A stretch of 64,000 nucleotides of DNA. Origin: Lachnospiraceae bacterium (GTDB lineage Bacteria > Bacillota > Clostridia > Lachnospirales > Lachnospiraceae). The notes under the pieces are model-generated. The model was not told the DNA's origin, ran no database searches, and saw only the letters and a list, made by a program, of their open reading frames with translations. The DNA lies in contig JAAUZV010000006.1 of the NCBI GenBank assembly GCA_014804425.1, positions 42,421 through 106,420 on the forward strand. The letters run 5' to 3'. Below, piece by piece: positions 1,477 to 62,942 of the stretch. A program made the translations under genes and the position numbers. How positions within the stretch are numbered: position 1 is the stretch's first letter; each line of letters opens with the position of its first letter.

Positions 1477-2067
1477 TCACTCCCTGTATTCAACCGGATA
1501 ATGCTCCACAATTTTCTGATACAGAAAACAGCTTTCCTCATGATCATTGATGATCCCGCATGCCTGCAGATGAGAATAAACGGTAACGGAGCCCAAAAAT
1601 TTGAACCCGCGCTTTTTTAATTCCTTTGCGATCTTGTCCGACAGTTCATTGCTTGCCACCCAGTTCGTCCGATGACTCTTGTAGATCAGGGTTTTGCCGC
1701 CGCTGTAGTCCCACAGAAAGCGATCGAAGGAGCCAAACTCCTCCCTGATCTGAATGAAGGCCTTTGCATTTCCGATCACGGCGTGTATCTTGCGGATGGA
1801 TTTGATCATATCGGGCGTTTCCATGATATTCTGTATCTTTGTTTCATCATAGCAGGCAATCTTTTCATAATCAAAATCATCAAAGCATTTCCGAAACGTC
1901 TCGCGCTTTTTCAGCATCAGCGTCCAGCTTAAACCGCACTGCATGACCTCCAGCATCAGAAATTCAAACTGCTTTCTGTCGTCATGAAGCGGAATACCCC
2001 ACTCGTTATCGTGATAGGTTTCGTTTAACCCACCGTCCCTGCACCATGCGCATTTTTCTTTTGTCAT
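1477..2067 (-). CDS. tag: DNA-3-methyladenine glycosylase I
   Basis: CAWCRDGGLNETYHDNEWGIPLHDDRKQFEFLMLEVMQCGLSWTLMLKKRETFR is the Tag family signature; start set at internal MTKEK. Confidence 0.95.
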   Translation of the reverse strand: MTKEKCAWCRDGGLNETYHDNEWGIPLHDDRKQFEFLMLEVMQCGLSWTLMLKKRETFRKCFDDFDYEKIACYDETKIQNIMETPDMIKSIRKIHAVIGNAKAFIQIREEFGSFDRFLWDYSGGKTLIYKSHRTNWVASNELSDKIAKELKKRGFKFLGSVTVYSHLQACGIINDHEESCFLYQKIVEHYPVEYRE

Positions 2068-2101
2068 TATTTTCCCTCCTTGGCGGAGTCGCGGTTGCTT
2101 T

Positions 2102-2824
2102 TTATTTTTCACACGATCCCTTTCTCACATAAATATCCGCTGAACATAACATTGCGCCGTTCTCTTTTGACCGCTCAAACGCTTCCACGGTAAATCCCGC
2201 CGCTTCCAGTTCCGTCACGTACCCTTCTTTCCCTCTTGCTCTTGCAGGTAACAAAGGGATAAGAACTTCCTTCCCGTTCATCATCCGCTTTTGCGGTGTT
2301 TCATAATCACTGCCCGTCAGTTTCTGAAAATCCGCAAAGCTTTCAACCTTGTTCTCCTCCGCTTCCTCACTGTAGTTTTCGCGAAAGAACAACATCGGCG
2401 CATGATCGTTTAAGCAGGAATATGCGTTTTCCAGATAGCGTTTTCGTTCGCTGTCAGTAACGATCATATGAAAGCCCATCACATCAAGAGCTGCGTCAAA
2501 TTTCTCCTTCGGCGCTTCCTTTACCATATCAACCACTTCGACCCGCGCGTCCGTGAATCGCTTAAGCCTCTCTTTTGCTTTTTTTACCGCGGTCGGCGCA
2601 ATGTCTACGCCGCAGTAAATCACCCCAAGCTCTGAGAGAAGGATGCCGCAAGAGCCTTCCCCGCAGGCAAATTCGATCACTCTTTTTCCCTTCAGTCCGT
2701 TGTCGTCAACCCATTTTTTTATCGCTTCCGCCAGCACAACGTCCTTTTCCGAATTGCCCCAAAGCGCTATATCCGCATCGTAAGCCGCCTGATACCGTTT
2801 TTCATATGCTTTGTAATATTCCAT
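2102..2824 (-). CDS. SAM-dependent class I methyltransferase
   Basis: VIEFACGEGSCGILLSELGVIYCGVDIAPTAVKKAKERL motif I/II pattern. Confidence 0.85.
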   Translation of the reverse strand: MEYYKAYEKRYQAAYDADIALWGNSEKDVVLAEAIKKWVDDNGLKGKRVIEFACGEGSCGILLSELGVIYCGVDIAPTAVKKAKERLKRFTDARVEVVDMVKEAPKEKFDAALDVMGFHMIVTDSERKRYLENAYSCLNDHAPMLFFRENYSEEAEENKVESFADFQKLTGSDYETPQKRMMNGKEVLIPLLPARARGKEGYVTELEAAGFTVEAFERSKENGAMLCSADIYVRKGSCEK

Positions 2825-2841
2825 CGTCCATCCCTCCTAAA

Positions 2842-3030
2842 GCATAAAAAAGAACGCAGAGCGTTCTTTCGAAGAATCGCAAAAGCGATTCTTCTGGGGT
2901 CGCGCAATTTCCTATAAGTTAAAAAAGAACGCTGCGCGTTCTTTCGAAGAATCCGCTTTGCGAATTCTTCTGGATTGAGTAATTCCTATAGCATAAAAAG
3001 ACCGAGAAATCAGGTAACGTCTCTCGGTTC
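2842..3030 (-). repeat. Two tandem copies plus a partial copy of a hairpin repeat (family A) in the methyltransferase leader
   Basis: Unit on minus strand: TATAGGAA(A)TT...CC-AGAAGAATCGC..GCGATTCTTC-GAAAGAACGC..GCGTTCTTTTTT, at 2842-2916 and 2917-2990, then a third hairpin with TCTTTTTATGC at 2991-3030. Confidence 0.85.
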
Positions 3031-3164
3031 ATTGTGTCCTTCGATTTTTAGGCGTATTTCATTGTACAGTTTATCACAAAAATAAATACAAGTCTACTCA
3101 TTTTTTATTTTTCTGCTAAAATTTTCTTATCAGCTGATCAATGCGAATGAAGGAGGGATTGATT

Positions 3165-3989
3165 TTGATACAATTTCAGGATATTTGCAAAAGCTATCGG
3201 GTAGCCAGACGCGGGTCCGGGCTCGGCAATGCGGCAAAATCACTTTTTAAGAGAGAGTACAACACCATTCATGCCATTAACCATATCAGTTTTTCCATAA
3301 ACGATGGGGAAATGATCGGTCTGCTTGGTCCGAACGGCGCAGGCAAAAGCTCTACGATCAAAATTTTAAGCGGGATATTGACACCGGATAGCGGAACATG
3401 TCTGGTAAACGGTCAGGTGCCTTGGAAAAACAGAAAAGCATATGTCAGACAGATCGGCGTTGTTTTCGGTCAGCGCTCGCAATTATGGTGGGATGTTCCC
3501 GTCATGGATTCGTTTGAACTTTTGCAGGCAATCTATTCCATACCCGCACCAAGATACCGCAGCAGACTGGACGAGCTGACGCAGCTTTTACATTTGGAGG
3601 AGCTATTAAAGACTCCGACAAGGCAGCTATCATTGGGACAGCGCATGCGCTGTGAAATCGCTGCGTCCCTGCTGCATGAACCCAAGCTGTTATTTTTAGA
3701 TGAGCCAACGATCGGATTGGACGCAGTATCTAAGGTTGCCGTGCGCAGCTTTATCAAGAAGATGAATGAAGAACATAAGACCACGGTGATCCTGACAACA
3801 CATGATATGCAGGATATTGAGGCAATTACCAAACGCGTGATCTTGATCGGCAAAGGCCAGAAGCTGTTGGACGGCACATTGGAAGATTTGCGTCTTGAGG
3901 CGGCGTCAGCGGAATCAGAAGCCGAAAGCTCTGAGACAGACATTGACCACATGATCGCCAGACTCTATGAAAAACTAAATATCATGTAG
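3165..3989 (+). CDS. ABC-2 type transporter ATP-binding protein
   Basis: Walker A GPNGAGKSS, LSLGQRMRCE signature, LLFLDEPTIGLD; TTG start at 3165 preceded by GGAGG; the listed ORF start at 3141 is less likely. Confidence 0.92.
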   Translation: MIQFQDICKSYRVARRGSGLGNAAKSLFKREYNTIHAINHISFSINDGEMIGLLGPNGAGKSSTIKILSGILTPDSGTCLVNGQVPWKNRKAYVRQIGVVFGQRSQLWWDVPVMDSFELLQAIYSIPAPRYRSRLDELTQLLHLEELLKTPTRQLSLGQRMRCEIAASLLHEPKLLFLDEPTIGLDAVSKVAVRSFIKKMNEEHKTTVILTTHDMQDIEAITKRVILIGKGQKLLDGTLEDLRLEAASAESEAESSETDIDHMIARLYEKLNIM

Positions 3990-3998
3990 GAGGCGGCA

Positions 3999-4802
3999 AT
4001 GAAAAAATATTATCGTTTTTTTCAACTTCGATTTGCCACCGGAATGCAGTATCGCATGGCATCCGTCACGGCTCTGACGACGCAGCTTATCTGGGGATTG
4101 ATGGAGTGTCTGGCATACAAAGCGATCGCAGAGGCCTCCGGCGGCAATCTGCCCATGAACTATTCTTCCATCGTGACATACATATGGCTGAAAGAAGCGC
4201 TGCTTGCTCTTTTTAACACGTGGGCGGCAGATAATGAGCTTTTTTCCATGATCACAAACGGCGATATTGCCTATGAACTGTGCCGTCCGGTGTCAATCTA
4301 TTCCATGTGGTTTTCCAGAACGATCGGAGCACGGATCGCTGAAGCGGTCATGAGATGTATTCCCGTATTATTATGTGCGTTCCTGATGCCGAAAGCCTAT
4401 CGGATGACCCCGCCGGTAGATCGTGTTTCCTTCCTGTTGTTCCTGCTCACTTTATTTTTGGCGCTCGGGATAACCGTCACATTTTGTATGATTGTCTATA
4501 TGCTGTGCTTTTTTACGATTTCACCGCAGGGATGGAGGATGGTATTGACAGGCGCGGTCGATTTTCTGTCAGGAAATATCATACCATTGCCGTTTTTTCC
4601 CAAAAGATTTTTATTTTTAGTGGAGATGTCTCCGTTTGCTTACATGCAGAATGTTCCGTTTCGGATATACTGCGGAGATCTTGTCGGAGCAGAAATCTAT
4701 CAGTGCATATTCAAACAGATTTTTTGGCTGGTGACATTGATGTTTTTGGGAATTGTCCTATGGAAACAGGCAGAAAAAAGAGTCATATTACAAGGAGGCT
4801 GA
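3999..4802 (+). CDS. ABC-2 family transporter permease
   Basis: Polytopic membrane protein directly after the ATPase gene. Confidence 0.85.
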   Translation: MKKYYRFFQLRFATGMQYRMASVTALTTQLIWGLMECLAYKAIAEASGGNLPMNYSSIVTYIWLKEALLALFNTWAADNELFSMITNGDIAYELCRPVSIYSMWFSRTIGARIAEAVMRCIPVLLCAFLMPKAYRMTPPVDRVSFLLFLLTLFLALGITVTFCMIVYMLCFFTISPQGWRMVLTGAVDFLSGNIIPLPFFPKRFLFLVEMSPFAYMQNVPFRIYCGDLVGAEIYQCIFKQIFWLVTLMFLGIVLWKQAEKRVILQGG

Positions 4803-35214: not shown

Positions 35215-36213
35215 TTAATATCCGATCACATACCATTTCCCATCGATTTTTGCGACTGTCAGTATCTCACCGTCACTGTACTCGCCCTCGCTGCCCTTAT
35301 AGGTTATTTCGACTTCCACCTCATAACCGCTGTTGATGGAAACGTCATATTGAAAATCTTCCATAAGATCCTGCTCAAGATCCCGGATCTGATACTCCAA
35401 AAGCGGCTCTGCCTGTACGATCGTATAAGTCATTTTCACATGGTTACCGCAATCCCACTCTAAGTTTTCATTAAAGTCTTCCCACAATTCCCGCTCAGAG
35501 CCATAATCGCGTGTCAGCTCACGCCGCACATCCCCACGGAGCCGTTCGGGAAATGCCTCCAACATTTTCCCCATATCCTGTTTTTCCAAACCATTCATTA
35601 AAACGCCGACAGCCTGCTGATATGTTTTGTGACTGTTATCCCGCGCCAAAAGAACAATAAGCAGAACGAGCGCCACCGCCACGATGAGTCCGACGATCGT
35701 GCCGATGATCACAAGCGCCTTGCGGCTGCTCTGCGGCTGTACCGCGACTCCATACGGACTATACGGATTTCCTGCAAAATATCCGTCCTCGCCCGCATAG
35801 CCCGGCATGTTCGGGTAGGATTGCTCCCCGTTTCCATATATCTGCCCGTTTGCATACGGCAGCTCCCCATTCCCATACGGCTGTCCGTTCGCATACACCG
35901 GGCCCGCATTTCCATATAGCTGCCCGTTCGCATACACCGGGCCCGCATTTCCATATGGCTGCCCATTCGCATACACAGGTGCCACATTCTCATATGGCTG
36001 ACCGCTTACATACGGCGGCTCTCCATTCCCATACGGCTGCCCGTTCGCATACACCGGGCCCGCATTCCCGTATGGTCGGTCCCCTATATACGCCGTCTCT
36101 CCGTTTCCAAGCGGCTGCATAGGTGTAAGGTCAATCTCCGTCGGTGTGCCGCATAATGCGCAAAACCGGGCGCCGCTTTGCAGCTCCGTCCCGCAATTCC
36201 TACAATAACTCAT
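35215..36213 (-). CDS. Zinc-ribbon membrane protein with 13-aa Tyr/Gly/Asn tandem repeats
   Basis: MSYCRNCGTELQSGARFCALCGT zinc ribbon; (PVYANGQPYGNAG)n; TM VIIGTIVGLIVAVALVLLIVLLA. Confidence 0.85.
   Translation of the reverse strand: MSYCRNCGTELQSGARFCALCGTPTEIDLTPMQPLGNGETAYIGDRPYGNAGPVYANGQPYGNGEPPYVSGQPYENVAPVYANGQPYGNAGPVYANGQLYGNAGPVYANGQPYGNGELPYANGQIYGNGEQSYPNMPGYAGEDGYFAGNPYSPYGVAVQPQSSRKALVIIGTIVGLIVAVALVLLIVLLARDNSHKTYQQAVGVLMNGLEKQDMGKMLEAFPERLRGDVRRELTRDYGSERELWEDFNENLEWDCGNHVKMTYTIVQAEPLLEYQIRDLEQDLMEDFQYDVSINSGYEVEVEITYKGSEGEYSDGEILTVAKIDGKWYVIGY
35821..36099 (-). repeat. 39-bp coding tandem repeat, about 7 imperfect units
   Basis: Repeated cccgttcgcatacaccgggcccgcatttccatatggctg-type units. 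Confidence 0.9.
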
Positions 36214-36730
36214 TGTCTGCTCCTCCGTCATGGATCATGCTGTTTTTTCTTTCGTACCGATAAAAAGTATACGGTATATCGAAATACGTATGTTCATCAC
36301 TGTCCGCCGTGATCTCCCAATCCTGCGATTCATCCAAATTCGGAAAATAAGCATCCGCCGCATAGGTATGATCGATCTTCGTCACATGCACCGTATCGCA
36401 GTACGGCAGCATCAGACGATACACGCTCTCTCCGCCTACAATGAACACATCCCCATCGTCATATTTTTTTAACTCATCAAGCAGTTCATCTTCACTGTGA
36501 AACACCTGCGCCCCCTTCTTTGTGAAAGAAGGATTCGCGGAAAGAATCAGATTCGTCCTGCCCGTCAGTGGCTGCTCCTGCGGAAAGGTCATTAATGTTT
36601 TTCTGCCGTACACGATCACCTTTCCCGTCGTCATTTCACGGAACATTTTGTGGTCGTTCGGGATGCTCACCAACAGCTTTCCCTTATTGCCGATCGCCCA
36701 ATTTGCGTCCACCGCCACGATCATATTCAT
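36200..36730 (-). CDS. folA: Dihydrofolate reductase
   Basis: MNMIVAVDANWAIGNKGKLLVSIPNDHKMFREMTTGKVIVYGRKTLMTFP...VFIVGGESVYRLMLPYCD. Confidence 0.96.
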   Translation of the reverse strand: MNMIVAVDANWAIGNKGKLLVSIPNDHKMFREMTTGKVIVYGRKTLMTFPQEQPLTGRTNLILSANPSFTKKGAQVFHSEDELLDELKKYDDGDVFIVGGESVYRLMLPYCDTVHVTKIDHTYAADAYFPNLDESQDWEITADSDEHTYFDIPYTFYRYERKNSMIHDGGADNELL

Positions 36731-56712: not shown

Positions 56713-58035
56713 TTAGAGAATATAATCCGTGATGCAATCATACCAATGCACATAGGTAATACCGTTGATCATGAGTTGTTCGTTTTCCGGAAGCTGCTCG
56801 CTCCATCTTTTCTTATAATAGTCGATTGCCCAATCATCCCGGTTGAACCGCCGCCATAGGATCGTCTTGCCGTTTTGATCTAAGAATTGCTCTGATACCA
56901 CCCCGCAATTGTAGGTTTCCATGTCCATCACACAGACAGTGTCATAGCTCTTTCCATCGATCGTAACGGTATATCTGCCAACAATATCCAGCATAAATTC
57001 TTTGTCTGCGCTCGTAATGACCGTTCCGTTTCTTACGATATCACCCTTTGGAGAGAGGTTCGTTTCATTTCCGCAGTTGTCTTCTCCAAACCCCCAGTTC
57101 AGCATAAATTCATCGCCATCGAGGAATGTAATATAGTTTCTGATATCTCCGTCATTTGTAAGCGCTGCCAGATAGCGGCAGTGCGTGTCCGTAAGCTGTG
57201 CCACAAATGTGCGATCTATCACTTCGATCTTATCAGAATATGAACTTTCCCTCGCCGTCAATTCCACTCCCTCAATGCCGTGTACCTTCGCTTTTCCGAT
57301 AACCTCCATATCATACACATGACTACACTTACGCGAAGGCATATCATATATCCCCCAGGAAAGTTTTTCCCCAAGTTTTGGAACAAGCAGCCATCCCATC
57401 AATTCTTCCCATTTCACTGCAAACGGACTTTCAGAGCTTTCCTCTATTTTGTATTCCGGAAGCCATTCAGGTAATTTTTTCATACTAATCCCTCCATTCT
57501 TATAAAACCCGCTTGTGAAGGAACTTTGTTCCCTCGCATTTTCTCCCTTCGATCTGCCGGTGCGATACGGATATTTGCTTTTGAATTCCTGCTTTGCCGT
57601 ATGAAGTCTGCTTTTCACGGTCCCTACAGGAATGTCCAGCCGTTTTGCAATTTCTGCCTGAGACATTTCCTTCCAAAAGTACAGATAAAGAATCTGCTTG
57701 TCTTTGTCACCCAGCAGTTCCCATGTATCTCTTACGGTATACACCTCCGAAACACCGTGCCTGCCATCCGAAAATCCTTGCTCTGCCAGTCCATCAATCG
57801 GAATCTCAAACTGAATTGCCCTCTTACGAAAATAATCGTTACATTTATTTCTGGCGATACTCAGTATCCAGGCTTTAAATGAATCTTTCTTTTTTAACTG
57901 ATTAAATCTTTGATAAGCCGTAAGATATACCTCCTGCAGTACATCATCCGCATCTGCTTTTGCATTCAACCGAAATCGCACAAAACGTTCTACAGATACT
58001 CGCACGGCAGCGAGCATTATTTCAAAATCATCCAC
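56713..58035 (-). CDS. ECF sigma factor with about 260-aa C-terminal extension (internal start possible at 57483)
   Basis: Sigma region 2 (DADDVLQEVYLTAYQRFNQL) and region 4 (MSQAEIAKRLDIPVGTVKSRLHTAKQEF), then MKKLPEWLPEYKIEES... preceded by GGAGGGATTAGTATG. Confidence 0.85.
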   Translation of the reverse strand: MDDFEIMLAAVRVSVERFVRFRLNAKADADDVLQEVYLTAYQRFNQLKKKDSFKAWILSIARNKCNDYFRKRAIQFEIPIDGLAEQGFSDGRHGVSEVYTVRDTWELLGDKDKQILYLYFWKEMSQAEIAKRLDIPVGTVKSRLHTAKQEFKSKYPYRTGRSKGENAREQSSFTSGFYKNGGISMKKLPEWLPEYKIEESSESPFAVKWEELMGWLLVPKLGEKLSWGIYDMPSRKCSHVYDMEVIGKAKVHGIEGVELTARESSYSDKIEVIDRTFVAQLTDTHCRYLAALTNDGDIRNYITFLDGDEFMLNWGFGEDNCGNETNLSPKGDIVRNGTVITSADKEFMLDIVGRYTVTIDGKSYDTVCVMDMETYNCGVVSEQFLDQNGKTILWRRFNRDDWAIDYYKKRWSEQLPENEQLMINGITYVHWYDCITDYIL

Positions 58036-58205
58036 ACCGTCACCTCCTTACTTTTTTTGATCAAAACCGGTTTCAATTATATAGACGAATCCCGATACCC
58101 GGAGGTTCATTTTTCAGCATAATTCGTGTTAATAGAGACTGGAAAAAAAGTCAATCATGAAGTATGATATCTCATATAAAACAAGAAAAGTGGAGGAATA
58201 TCTGT

Positions 58206-59015
58206 ATGAAAAGATTTAGAATCTATGCCTCTATACTGACCTGCCTATTGATTTTCAGCGGGTGCGGTAAGACTCAGCAATCACCTGCTTTGTTTTCTGA
58301 CACTTCGCTTTCTTCCGATGATGTGCTTTCTTCCGATGATACAGCTTCCTCCGACGATACCCTTTCTCCTGACGATGCAGCTCCCTCCGACGATACCCTT
58401 TCTCCTGACGATGCAGCTCCCTCCGACGAGCTGCTTCCCTCAGAGGAACCCCTTTCTCCTTCGGAGCTTGCAATGGCGGCCTATTCCTCCTTTCTGTCAG
58501 GTGACATCTCCCTGTTTGACAGTGAGCAGTTATACACATGGCATCTGGAAGGTTGGGCGGATTTTATTCAATCCGATCTGACATATGAATATACTTATTT
58601 GGATTTGGACGGGGACGGCATTGAGGAACTGCTTATTCAGATGGAAGACGCTCCGCTCTGCTACAACGCCGTATTCCATTATGCCGACGGCGCACTGTTC
58701 TGTTGGAATCAGGATATGGTGGAAATGACATCCGGGGATTATCCTCTGCAGGATGGCACCATGGTGTCGCAGTATGATTATAATGACACCAGTTCTTATA
58801 CGGTATTCCGCTATCTGCCTGACGGAGAACGGGAGACGCTTTCCCAACTGTATGCCAGAGAGTCGATAGACGAAGACAGCGATCTTCCCTGTCCCTATTA
58901 TGAGGTAGGCGGCGTCGAGGTCGATCATAGCGTATTCGTGGAACAACTGGAGGAATTGATCACAAAGCAGCTGCTGCCGCGCTCGGCCTGGACTTCTATC
59001 GACAGGATGGATTAG
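58206..59015 (+). CDS. Lipoprotein with Ser/Asp-rich repeat linker
   Basis: Lipobox LLIFSGCG; SPDDAAPSDDTL repeats; DLDGDGIEELLIQ. Confidence 0.85.
   Translation: MKRFRIYASILTCLLIFSGCGKTQQSPALFSDTSLSSDDVLSSDDTASSDDTLSPDDAAPSDDTLSPDDAAPSDELLPSEEPLSPSELAMAAYSSFLSGDISLFDSEQLYTWHLEGWADFIQSDLTYEYTYLDLDGDGIEELLIQMEDAPLCYNAVFHYADGALFCWNQDMVEMTSGDYPLQDGTMVSQYDYNDTSSYTVFRYLPDGERETLSQLYARESIDEDSDLPCPYYEVGGVEVDHSVFVEQLEELITKQLLPRSAWTSIDRMD
58365..58436 (+). repeat. 36-bp coding tandem repeat (two near-identical units plus degenerate units)
   Basis: tctcctgacgatgcagctccctccgacgatacccttt repeated. Confidence 0.85.
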
Positions 59016-61243: not shown

Positions 61244-61286
61244 ATTCGCACAAATACATACTTCACGGTCATGTATTTGTGCGAAT
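61244..61286. terminator. Perfect 16-bp hairpin between convergent AraC and TIR genes
   Basis: ATTCGCACAAATACAT...ATGTATTTGTGCGAAT. Confidence 0.8.
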
Positions 61287-61314: not shown

Positions 61315-62769
61315 TTATTCCCCGCTCTCCTCACCGCGGAAGGTGACAAGACGCAGGTCCACGGTCAGCGCCGGACGCACACCGAAGCCTTCCAGACCCG
61401 CATTTTCCTGCCTGATCACCCTTTCGGTATAACCGTTGTCCACCAGATAGCACAGACTTGCCGCTTCCGTCTCCGGTTCACGGAGCCACCAGCTCAGGCA
61501 CTCGGCTCCGTACGTATTATAATCCAGAATATACCAGAGGCTTTGATCCTGTTCGATCGCCGCGTCCGTGGGCGACGCGAACTTTCTCATGCCCGCATCG
61601 TCAAACCATGAAAGCTCCTCCAAAGATAACAGCCACACTCTGTCATAAGTCGTCACGTTCTCTGTCTCCGAAAGCGCATTCCCCTTCGTCACAAGCTCCG
61701 TTTCCACGATCGCATCGCGTTCTTCCTGTGTAAATCCGTAAAGAAAACCCGCTTCATTCTGATAGCCGTTTTTCTTTTCCGCCATTGCTGCCGCCACCGG
61801 CGGCTGATCGGTATAATTGACAACTTCAGTATCGGCGTTCAGCCATGTCCTCAGATTTGAAGCGCTCCAATCGCTGTTGCCGCGCACCCTTATCTGAAGC
61901 GCCATATCGGTATCCGCCTCGGACTCCCTTGTCCAGTAATCCTTGTCCCCGTCATAATTATAGCGTCCGCTCTCCGCCGTGTCATACGCCTTCATCGTCA
62001 GAATGTGGGAAGCGATCAGAACCGCCTGCGTTCCATCCTCGGAAATGCGCAGCACACGCCACTCAATATCCTCGTCTAAATAGCTCCCGAACAGCACCGT
62101 CTCGCCCACCTGAACCGAGACCGGTTCCGGCTCGTTCTTCTCTGCTGCGGTCTGCCCCGCTTCAGGCTTTCGCATGGCAAAAAAAGCAATCGCCGCAATC
62201 GCAAGCACGGCGACCGCCGCCACCGCAAAAATTCCGGCTTTCCGCTTTGCGGCATCTTTGGGTTTCTGATCCGCCGCATTTCCGACCGCTTTGGTTTTCT
62301 GACCCGCCGCATTTCCGGCTGCTTTTGGTTCCTGATCCGCTGCATTTCCGACCGCTTCTGTTCTGTCCGGCTCCGCATTCTCTTTTTCTGCAAGATCCTG
62401 CGCAAACGCCACAATATCGGCATAATCCTCCTGCGGCTTCGAGCTGACCCACTGATGCGTCATCAGGAAATATTCCATGGATTTGGAAAGCGCCACGTCC
62501 TCAATCTTATATACCAGAATCGGCGTGCCGCCGCTGACCGCATGCTCCACCTCCCGCAAAACATGAGGAGAGCTGTTTGCATTCTCAGACATCAGCAAAA
62601 CCACTGCCGCCGACTCGTCAATGCCGTTGATGATCTCCTCCGCATATTCTTTTCCCGGTCGGATGTTCCTCGGCGCGATAAAGCATTGGATGCCGTTTTT
62701 CTCAAGCTGCTCACAAATCTGCTCCGCGATCGCGGCATCCTTGGAGGAATGTGATAAAAAAATCTGCAT
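61315..62769 (-). CDS. TIR domain protein with TM helix and C-terminal DUF6273-like domain
   Basis: MQIFLSHSSKDAAIAEQICEQLEKNGIQCFIAPRNIRPGKEYAEEIINGID...VVLLMSENANSSPHVLREVEHAV; TM FAVAAVAVLAIAAIAFFAM; extracytoplasmic WRVLRISEDGTQAVLIA...LSWWLREP. Confidence 0.9.
   Translation of the reverse strand: MQIFLSHSSKDAAIAEQICEQLEKNGIQCFIAPRNIRPGKEYAEEIINGIDESAAVVLLMSENANSSPHVLREVEHAVSGGTPILVYKIEDVALSKSMEYFLMTHQWVSSKPQEDYADIVAFAQDLAEKENAEPDRTEAVGNAADQEPKAAGNAAGQKTKAVGNAADQKPKDAAKRKAGIFAVAAVAVLAIAAIAFFAMRKPEAGQTAAEKNEPEPVSVQVGETVLFGSYLDEDIEWRVLRISEDGTQAVLIASHILTMKAYDTAESGRYNYDGDKDYWTRESEADTDMALQIRVRGNSDWSASNLRTWLNADTEVVNYTDQPPVAAAMAEKKNGYQNEAGFLYGFTQEERDAIVETELVTKGNALSETENVTTYDRVWLLSLEELSWFDDAGMRKFASPTDAAIEQDQSLWYILDYNTYGAECLSWWLREPETEAASLCYLVDNGYTERVIRQENAGLEGFGVRPALTVDLRLVTFRGEESGE
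62258..62360 (-). repeat. 33-bp coding tandem repeat, three units, in the linker of the TIR protein
   Basis: AVGNAADQEPKA/AGNAAGQKTKA/VGNAADQKPKD. Confidence 0.85.
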
Positions 62770-62942
62770 GATATGTTTCTCCTTAACGTAATCTTTTCGT
62801 CAGTGCCGCTCAATATATAACGTTTTCCTGCGACATTTCCACCATTCTTTTCAGCGCGTCCTGCTATGCCCTATGGCAAGAAAAAACCATGATCATATAA
62901 CAGCGACTCAATGCCCGCGCTTGGTTCAAACCTGATTCCACG

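Follow-up and report, generated by a model that had tools for sequence, protein, structure and literature searches.

A Predicted One-Pass TIR-DUF6273 Receptor of Gut Clostridia and Its Genetic Link to a DHH-DHHA1 Phosphoesterase

The protein described here joins an N-terminal TIR domain, through a variable linker and one transmembrane (TM) segment, to a C-terminal DUF6273 domain, and genes of its family are linked to a gene encoding a DHH-DHHA1 phosphoesterase. It was found in a 64,000-nucleotide stretch of DNA from a Lachnospiraceae bacterium, hereafter called the window. The best reading of this arrangement, which we hold tentatively and at slightly less than even confidence, is that a transmembrane receptor would signal through its TIR domain by a nucleotide product, which the DHH enzyme would remove.

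Results

Architecture and Predicted Topology

A preliminary description of the window, made from its letters only, had proposed an N-terminal TIR domain and a C-terminal DUF6273-like domain joined by a 33-bp repeat linker and one TM. Both domains exceeded their Pfam cut-offs and gave Foldseek matches, the tandem repeat proved to be real (3.1 copies, 84% match), and one strong helix was detected (Table 1). The window protein scored 72.5 bits against TIR_2 (cut-off 28) and 71.4 bits against DUF6273 (PF19789, residues 290–471, E = 1.1e-19, cut-off 23.5); its TIR also scored 24.8 bits against PF08937, which is just over the cut-off of 21.2 and far below the TIR_2 score. The AlphaFold2 model constructed from a 45-sequence alignment exhibited a mean pLDDT of 86, with values of 97–98 over most of the ectodomain and very low values in the linker. 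Foldseek paired the ectodomain of this model with 9qa6 at its DUF6273 domain (E = 3e-14) and the N-terminus with the TIRs of SARM1, RPP1, SPARTA, and SpbK, and the best 50 matches comprised 9qa6 and TIRs only. Alignment with the solved DUF6273 of the Thomasclavelia ramosa IgA protease showed that the ectodomain homology starts near residue 218 and spans about 218–473. DUF6273 was assigned as C-type-lectin-like by DALI on other proteins (PMC10743442), by analogy with which the present ectodomain may be C-type-lectin-like as well. A profile comparison with known TIRs further matched the TIR profile of the family to the TIRs of TLR1/2/6.

Table 1. Coordinates of the features discussed in the text; positions are those of the window unless a contig or locus is named.
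Feature	Position	Strand	Basis
CDS: TIR, linker, TM, DUF6273; 484 aa, ATG start	61315..62769	(-)	ORF, Pfam, relatives at 57 loci
Shine-Dalgarno AAGGAGA, 5' of the ATG of the TIR-DUF6273 gene	62778..62784	(-)	sequence
TIR_2 domain, residues 3–111, predicted cytosolic	62437..62763	(-)	Pfam E 5.6e-20; Foldseek
Glu73, candidate catalytic Glu	62551..62553	(-)	alignment of family and known TIRs
His69, E minus 4 position	62563..62565	(-)	alignment; invariant in family
33-bp tandem repeat coding Ala/Lys-rich linker, not conserved	62256..62357	(-)	repeat scan
Single transmembrane helix, residues 180–198	62176..62232	(-)	hydropathy and charge bias, 55 members
DUF6273 ectodomain, residues 219–475	61345..62115	(-)	Pfam, alignment, model, Foldseek
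TIR-TM-beta-propeller and DHH-CTD pair	G000:C11 about 43.8–48.4 kb (L144:6792-11429)	minus	adjacency
Operon-like clusters: ~300-aa TIR, ~500-aa protein, CTD-only protein	L138:6786-12108, L137:6432-11597, L150:3453-6768

Scanning of the GTDB genomes yielded 57 loci, 56 of which match the TIR and DUF6273 regions together; they come from gut-type MAGs of Lachnospiraceae, Oscillospiraceae, and other Clostridia. The family alignment consists of 55 sequences, namely the window protein and 54 relatives. Hydropathy analysis detected one strong TM in every aligned protein, and the flank on its N-side carries a net positive charge in nearly all of them, usually a more positive one than the C-side flank. 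Because the TM is single in all 55 proteins and its N-side is mostly positive, the TIR domain is predicted to lie inside the cell and DUF6273 outside, which is the topology that had been proposed for the window protein. Both the folds and the orientation of this receptor are supported by prediction.

The mean pairwise identity within the family is 66% for the TIR domain, 51% for the ectodomain, and 17% for the linker. Synonymous changes outnumber nonsynonymous ones between close relatives in both TIR and ectodomain, and a hypervariable stretch is absent; the two domains are under purifying selection. A chance origin of this architecture is excluded by the scores against curated models, by the occurrence of 57 loci of the same family, and by the conservation of both folded domains alongside a drifting linker. 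The full-length architecture was detected in 4 of 200 Lachnospiraceae genera, indicating a patchy distribution. The window genome holds a second DUF6273 match (G000:C1:151713-152288) in an ORF without a TIR domain.

Candidate Catalytic Site of the TIR Domain

The candidate glutamate pointed out previously within 'SSPHVLREVEHAV' corresponds to E73, which is invariant in the 55 aligned sequences, as is E75, and which aligns with the glutamate of Cat1, 4c7m/4lzp, and 7uxr, that is, with the glutamate of known TIR NADases. A candidate for the conserved catalytic glutamate in the third helical region that marks TIR NADases and ADP-ribosyl cyclases is hence present throughout the family. An equivalent of E73 is likewise invariant in 16 TIRs of three types linked to the DHH enzyme or its C-terminal domain (see below). 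In the 55-sequence family alignment, H69, S67, N65, and most of KSMEYFLMTHQW likewise vary little or not at all.

Tryptophan is typical of TIR NADases and ADP-ribosyl cyclases at the position four residues before the glutamate (E minus 4), but all 55 family members carry His69 there, in the column where 4c7m/4lzp and 7uxr have tryptophan. The corresponding tryptophan of AbTir lies four residues before its catalytic glutamate. Efficient cyclisation by AbTir depends on this tryptophan, without which the NADase activity is also reduced (PMC10937652). Since this residue is typical but is not known to be a universal requirement, the window TIR is treated here as a possible member of the NADase/ADP-ribosyl cyclase class. 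Given the histidine at the usual tryptophan position, NADase activity of the window TIR is uncertain, and the replacement implies that the domain may be weak, make a different product, or be non-enzymatic.

A DHH-DHHA1 Phosphoesterase as Genetic Partner

Survey of the gene neighbourhoods, which had been suggested in the preliminary description, revealed a partner that it had missed. Clustering of the flanking ORFs gave one recurrent neighbour, a DHH-DHHA1 phosphoesterase of about 500 aa found at 22 of the 57 loci. It is encoded directly downstream on the same strand at 18 of the 22, with TIR-to-DHH gaps of −59 to 140 bp, and is divergently adjacent at 2; at L034 and L047 its gene is fragmentary and lies a few genes from the TIR gene. 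The catalytic motifs HxNPDAD, D91, DHH, and GGGH are invariant in 19 sequences. The model of this enzyme (pLDDT 87) matched the folds of GdpP, T. maritima PDE, DhhP, and NrnA, with a best E of about 1e-17. It shares fold and motifs with GdpP, DhhP, and NrnA but differs from them in an extra C-terminal domain (CTD) of about 180 aa and in its linkage to TIR genes; we refer to it as DHH-CTD. The sequence search found no solved (PDB) relative of the CTD and gave weak similarity to PGDYG only. The conserved immediate neighbours in the clade of the window protein (AraC and MATE genes) show a synteny limited to near relatives. The genetic link between TIR-DUF6273 and DHH-CTD is well supported by these observations.

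The window genome encodes two DHH-CTD proteins on contigs other than that of the TIR-TM-DUF6273 gene, so that the receptor and the enzyme are present together without being adjacent. One of them, located on C8, has no TIR neighbour, and the other (C11:46923-48425) lies immediately upstream of a gene for a second TIR receptor, a 1042-aa protein composed of a TIR domain, a TM-like stretch near residue 206, and beta-propeller repeats. The generality of this pairing was evaluated using 200 Lachnospiraceae genomes, one per genus, with a DHH-CTD threshold of E = 1e-60. DHH-CTD was detected in 34 genera (17%), and a TIR gene is immediately adjacent to 15 of the 31 DHH-CTD genes examined, nearly all from different genera; about half of the 31 have no TIR neighbour. 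Twelve of the adjacent genes encode TIR-TM-beta-propeller proteins, two encode TIR-TM-DUF6273, and one encodes a TIR with several TMs. Any match to TIR_2 was obtained for only 88 of the 200 genomes, and chance adjacency to DHH-CTD would therefore be rare (0.4% per gene as a rough estimate).

Co-occurrence extends to genomes in which the two genes are apart. Among the 25 genomes with an unlinked TIR-DUF6273 gene, 22 encode DHH-CTD elsewhere, and the comparison with 34 of 200 gave a Fisher p of 2e-12, a statistic that is inflated by ignoring relatedness; the remaining 3 genomes have no DHH-CTD. Re-examination of 20 DHH-CTD loci from the unlinked genomes showed that eleven of them adjoin a propeller-type TIR. 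On the TIR tree, DHH linkage needs six changes versus 17 under shuffling, and the window clade consists of 23 members that all lack an adjacent DHH gene, which is explicable by one loss, or by one gain elsewhere. The DHH tree, prepared by a quick method, contains a clade of 27 that is composed of 19 DUF6273-linked and 8 unlinked rows with no propeller-linked row, and six of these eight unlinked rows come from a genome holding a TIR-DUF6273 gene elsewhere. On this tree, DHH-CTD follows the TIR type even in unlinked genomes. The divergent genes at L026 and L032 carry a DHH from the propeller-linked side of the tree, which shows partner exchange. A TIR receptor with an adjacent or co-occurring DHH-CTD, the module proposed below, was thus found in the family.

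The CTD also occurs apart from the DHH enzyme. In G177, G188, and G125, a TIR protein of about 300 aa and a CTD-only protein are encoded in one operon-like cluster, and a Pfam scan of the G188 cluster detected two further proteins, one with GAF-GGDEF and the other a class III nucleotide cyclase (PycC-like). In the L138 cluster, the ~500-aa protein is a class III nucleotide cyclase, with GAF-GGDEF and a xylose-isomerase-like TIM barrel as further members. The TIRs of these clusters lie among second-messenger enzymes.

Discussion

Proposed Mechanism

In the mechanism that we propose, the window protein would act as a one-pass membrane receptor, whose C-type-lectin-like DUF6273 domain senses something outside and whose TIR domain signals inside. 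Binding of a ligand, or clustering, would bring the TIR domains together for cleavage of NAD+ or a related nucleotide, which would yield a small nucleotide signal, and the DHH-DHHA1-CTD phosphoesterase would hydrolyse this signal for reset or tuning. The TIR-TM-beta-propeller proteins may use the same DHH partner, and the module would then consist of an exchangeable outside sensor, a TIR, and a DHH eraser. Such hydrolysis of a TIR product is chemically plausible, since the cyclic linkages attacked by DHH phosphodiesterases are diverse. The messenger of type III CRISPR, for example, is broken down by an enzyme of the DHH-DHHA1 kind (cited in PMC7824862). The substrate is presumed to be NAD+ or a relative of it, and the direction of control is likewise a supposition: the DHH enzyme could be a responder instead of an eraser. 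The window protein had previously been suggested to be an envelope-sensing receptor coupled to NAD+ depletion or signalling. An envelope-facing sensor is still the natural reading of its architecture, but the DHH-DHHA1 partner beside the TIR genes favours nucleotide signalling over the depletion of NAD+.

Alternative Explanations

The replacement of tryptophan by an invariant histidine at E minus 4 is also what might be expected of a non-enzymatic TIR, which would form oligomers or recruit partners in the manner of metazoan TLR/IL-1R and regulate the DHH-CTD enzyme through direct contact with its CTD. The almost invariant KSMEYFLMTHQW, which suggests a constrained surface, and the CTDs located near TIR genes without DHH, according to which the CTD could be the TIR-linked part, are consistent with this scaffold; however, none of the 55 proteins departs from E73 or E75, and the tryptophan is retained by the TIRs of propeller type that are linked to this DHH family, so that we consider it rather doubtful. 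An envelope-triggered abortive infection would have the ectodomain respond to phage adsorption or envelope damage, the TIR consume NAD+ and so halt the infected cell, and DHH serve as antidote or fine-tuner; in our estimation this is unlikely. TIR domains are common in bacterial immunity, the glutamate is conserved, the distribution is patchy, and the TIR fold resembles those of SPARTA and SpbK. Against this, PADLOC gave weak TIR-domain hits only and nothing for DHH-CTD, the ectodomain is under purifying selection and not fast-evolving, no plasmid was found to carry the gene, and the window gene is flanked by an AraC regulator, MATE, glyoxalase, and epimerase, in agreement with the earlier remark that its neighbours are not recognisable defence genes. 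A function of the window protein in phage defence is possible but unsupported here.

An incidental DHH linkage, with the TIR protein acting on its own, might be argued from the window clade, whose 23 members have no adjacent DHH, and from the 3 of 25 unlinked genomes that lack DHH-CTD. This seems quite improbable when the abutment of a TIR gene to 15 of 31 DHH-CTD genes, nearly all of different genera, is considered together with a partner common to two TIR architectures and a DHH tree that tracks the TIR type even in unlinked genomes. A lectin receptor made hypervariable by a diversity-generating retroelement (DGR) comes to mind since Faecalibacterium and related phages have DUF6273 as a DGR target fold (PMC10743442, PMC11792537), but it is scarcely credible for this protein. 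The C-terminal DNA has no second copy in the window genome, conservation of the C-terminal part equals that of the remaining ectodomain, and synonymous changes exceed nonsynonymous ones between close relatives; the purifying selection on the ectodomain and the lack of a DGR template copy argue against a hypervariable immune receptor. Assignment as a DGR target protein was rejected, as neither a template repeat copy in the window genome nor a hypervariable stretch was detected.

Assignment to a known defence system by HMM was also rejected, with weak and TIR-only matches in PADLOC and NCBIfam. For Thoeris, no ThsA match was obtained among the neighbouring genes scanned, and for CBASS and Pycsar, a CD-NTase or Pyc cyclase is absent from the four window neighbours named above. 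A mobile element was rejected as well: there was no plasmid hit, and the sole full-length 'phage' match, MT836910.1, looks like a bacterial contig. This entry (L246), filed as 'Bacteriophage sp.' from human stool, encodes TIR-TM-DUF6273 and DHH-CTD at 1560-4414, followed by genes that look ilv-like by eye.

Comparison with Known Systems

Metazoan Toll-like and IL-1 receptors cross the membrane once, with the TIR in the cytosol and the ectodomain facing the ligand (PMC7075850). The present receptors share this layout but have the opposite polarity with the TIR at the N-terminus, use DUF6273 or a beta-propeller instead of LRR or Ig, have a DHH phosphoesterase as a partner, and conserve the glutamate of enzymatic TIRs; the resemblance is one of layout, not membership. 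AbTir, Cat1, SpbK, SPARTA, and Thoeris ThsB have the same TIR fold with a glutamate at the same alignment position. To our knowledge, these proteins are soluble or filament-forming. The window protein differs from them as a predicted membrane receptor with an outside sensor and with histidine replacing tryptophan at E minus 4, and no ThsA, Argonaute, or CD-NTase lies beside its gene. The same DUF6273 domain occurs in the T. ramosa IgA protease and in the Hoc-like and tentaclin proteins of gut phages, where it is secreted or on the virion, whereas here it would be a membrane-anchored ectodomain fused to a TIR. In the CLec/FGE-TIR, STAND, and VMAP conflict systems (PMC7159879, PMC10907252), a TIR or another effector likewise carries a C-type-lectin-fold domain as a putative sensor. 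Most of these systems are cytosolic and built around an NTPase, and many are diversified by DGRs, whereas the present system has a one-pass TM and a DHH partner and no NTPase or DGR. Since combinations of a TIR with a transmembrane segment or a lectin fold have precedents elsewhere (PMC7159879, PMC10907252, PMC7517822), the window protein is not regarded as a new category. In the open-access literature, to which the search was mostly confined, no title on DUF6273 concerned TIR proteins, and nothing linked DHH phosphoesterases with TIR receptors.

Bacterial TIR domains have been studied mostly as suicide NADases in phage defence. It is possible, though the balance of our judgement lies against it, that the gut Clostridia hold a family for physiological TIR signalling, in which one-pass receptors resembling Toll receptors bear exchangeable outside sensors of the lectin-like DUF6273 or the beta-propeller type and produce a nucleotide second messenger, to be erased by a dedicated DHH-CTD, as opposed to suicidal NAD+ depletion. 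If true, the pair of TIR receptor and phosphodiesterase would constitute a synthesis-and-erasure signalling like that of GGDEF/EAL, and a membrane TIR receptor with an outside sensor would be an independent prokaryotic parallel to Toll-like receptors. Reversible second-messenger signalling by bacterial TIRs thereby becomes testable, with DHH-CTD as a concrete handle for the signal search. The protein is one of gut bacteria, and one of the contigs that encode it is from human stool.

Additional Observations

Related large proteins are encoded near the TIR-DUF6273 gene at L020 (9391-12159, minus strand), L030, L041, and L059; the L020 protein reads as zinc-ribbon, TPR, TIR, and leucine-rich repeats and is perhaps a further type of TIR protein. 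Within the window, a 16-bp perfect inverted repeat (ATTCGCACAAATACAT / ATGTATTTGTGCGAAT, 11-base loop) is located at 61244-61286 between the convergent AraC-type and TIR genes and is likely their shared terminator; the length of its loop kept it from being picked up by the scan. The gene at 58164-59015, which L006, L007, and L009 also have close to the TIR gene, encodes a predicted lipoprotein (LIFSGC) whose linker is a Ser/Asp-rich repeat (36-bp tandem repeat). In the single ORF at 56713-58035, an ECF sigma factor is followed by a long uncharacterised C-terminal part. Inspection by eye of the protein encoded at 35215-36231 showed a zinc-ribbon-like motif at the N-terminus, a TM-like stretch, and a repeat region rich in Gly/Asn/Tyr (39-bp tandem repeat, 35823-36118).
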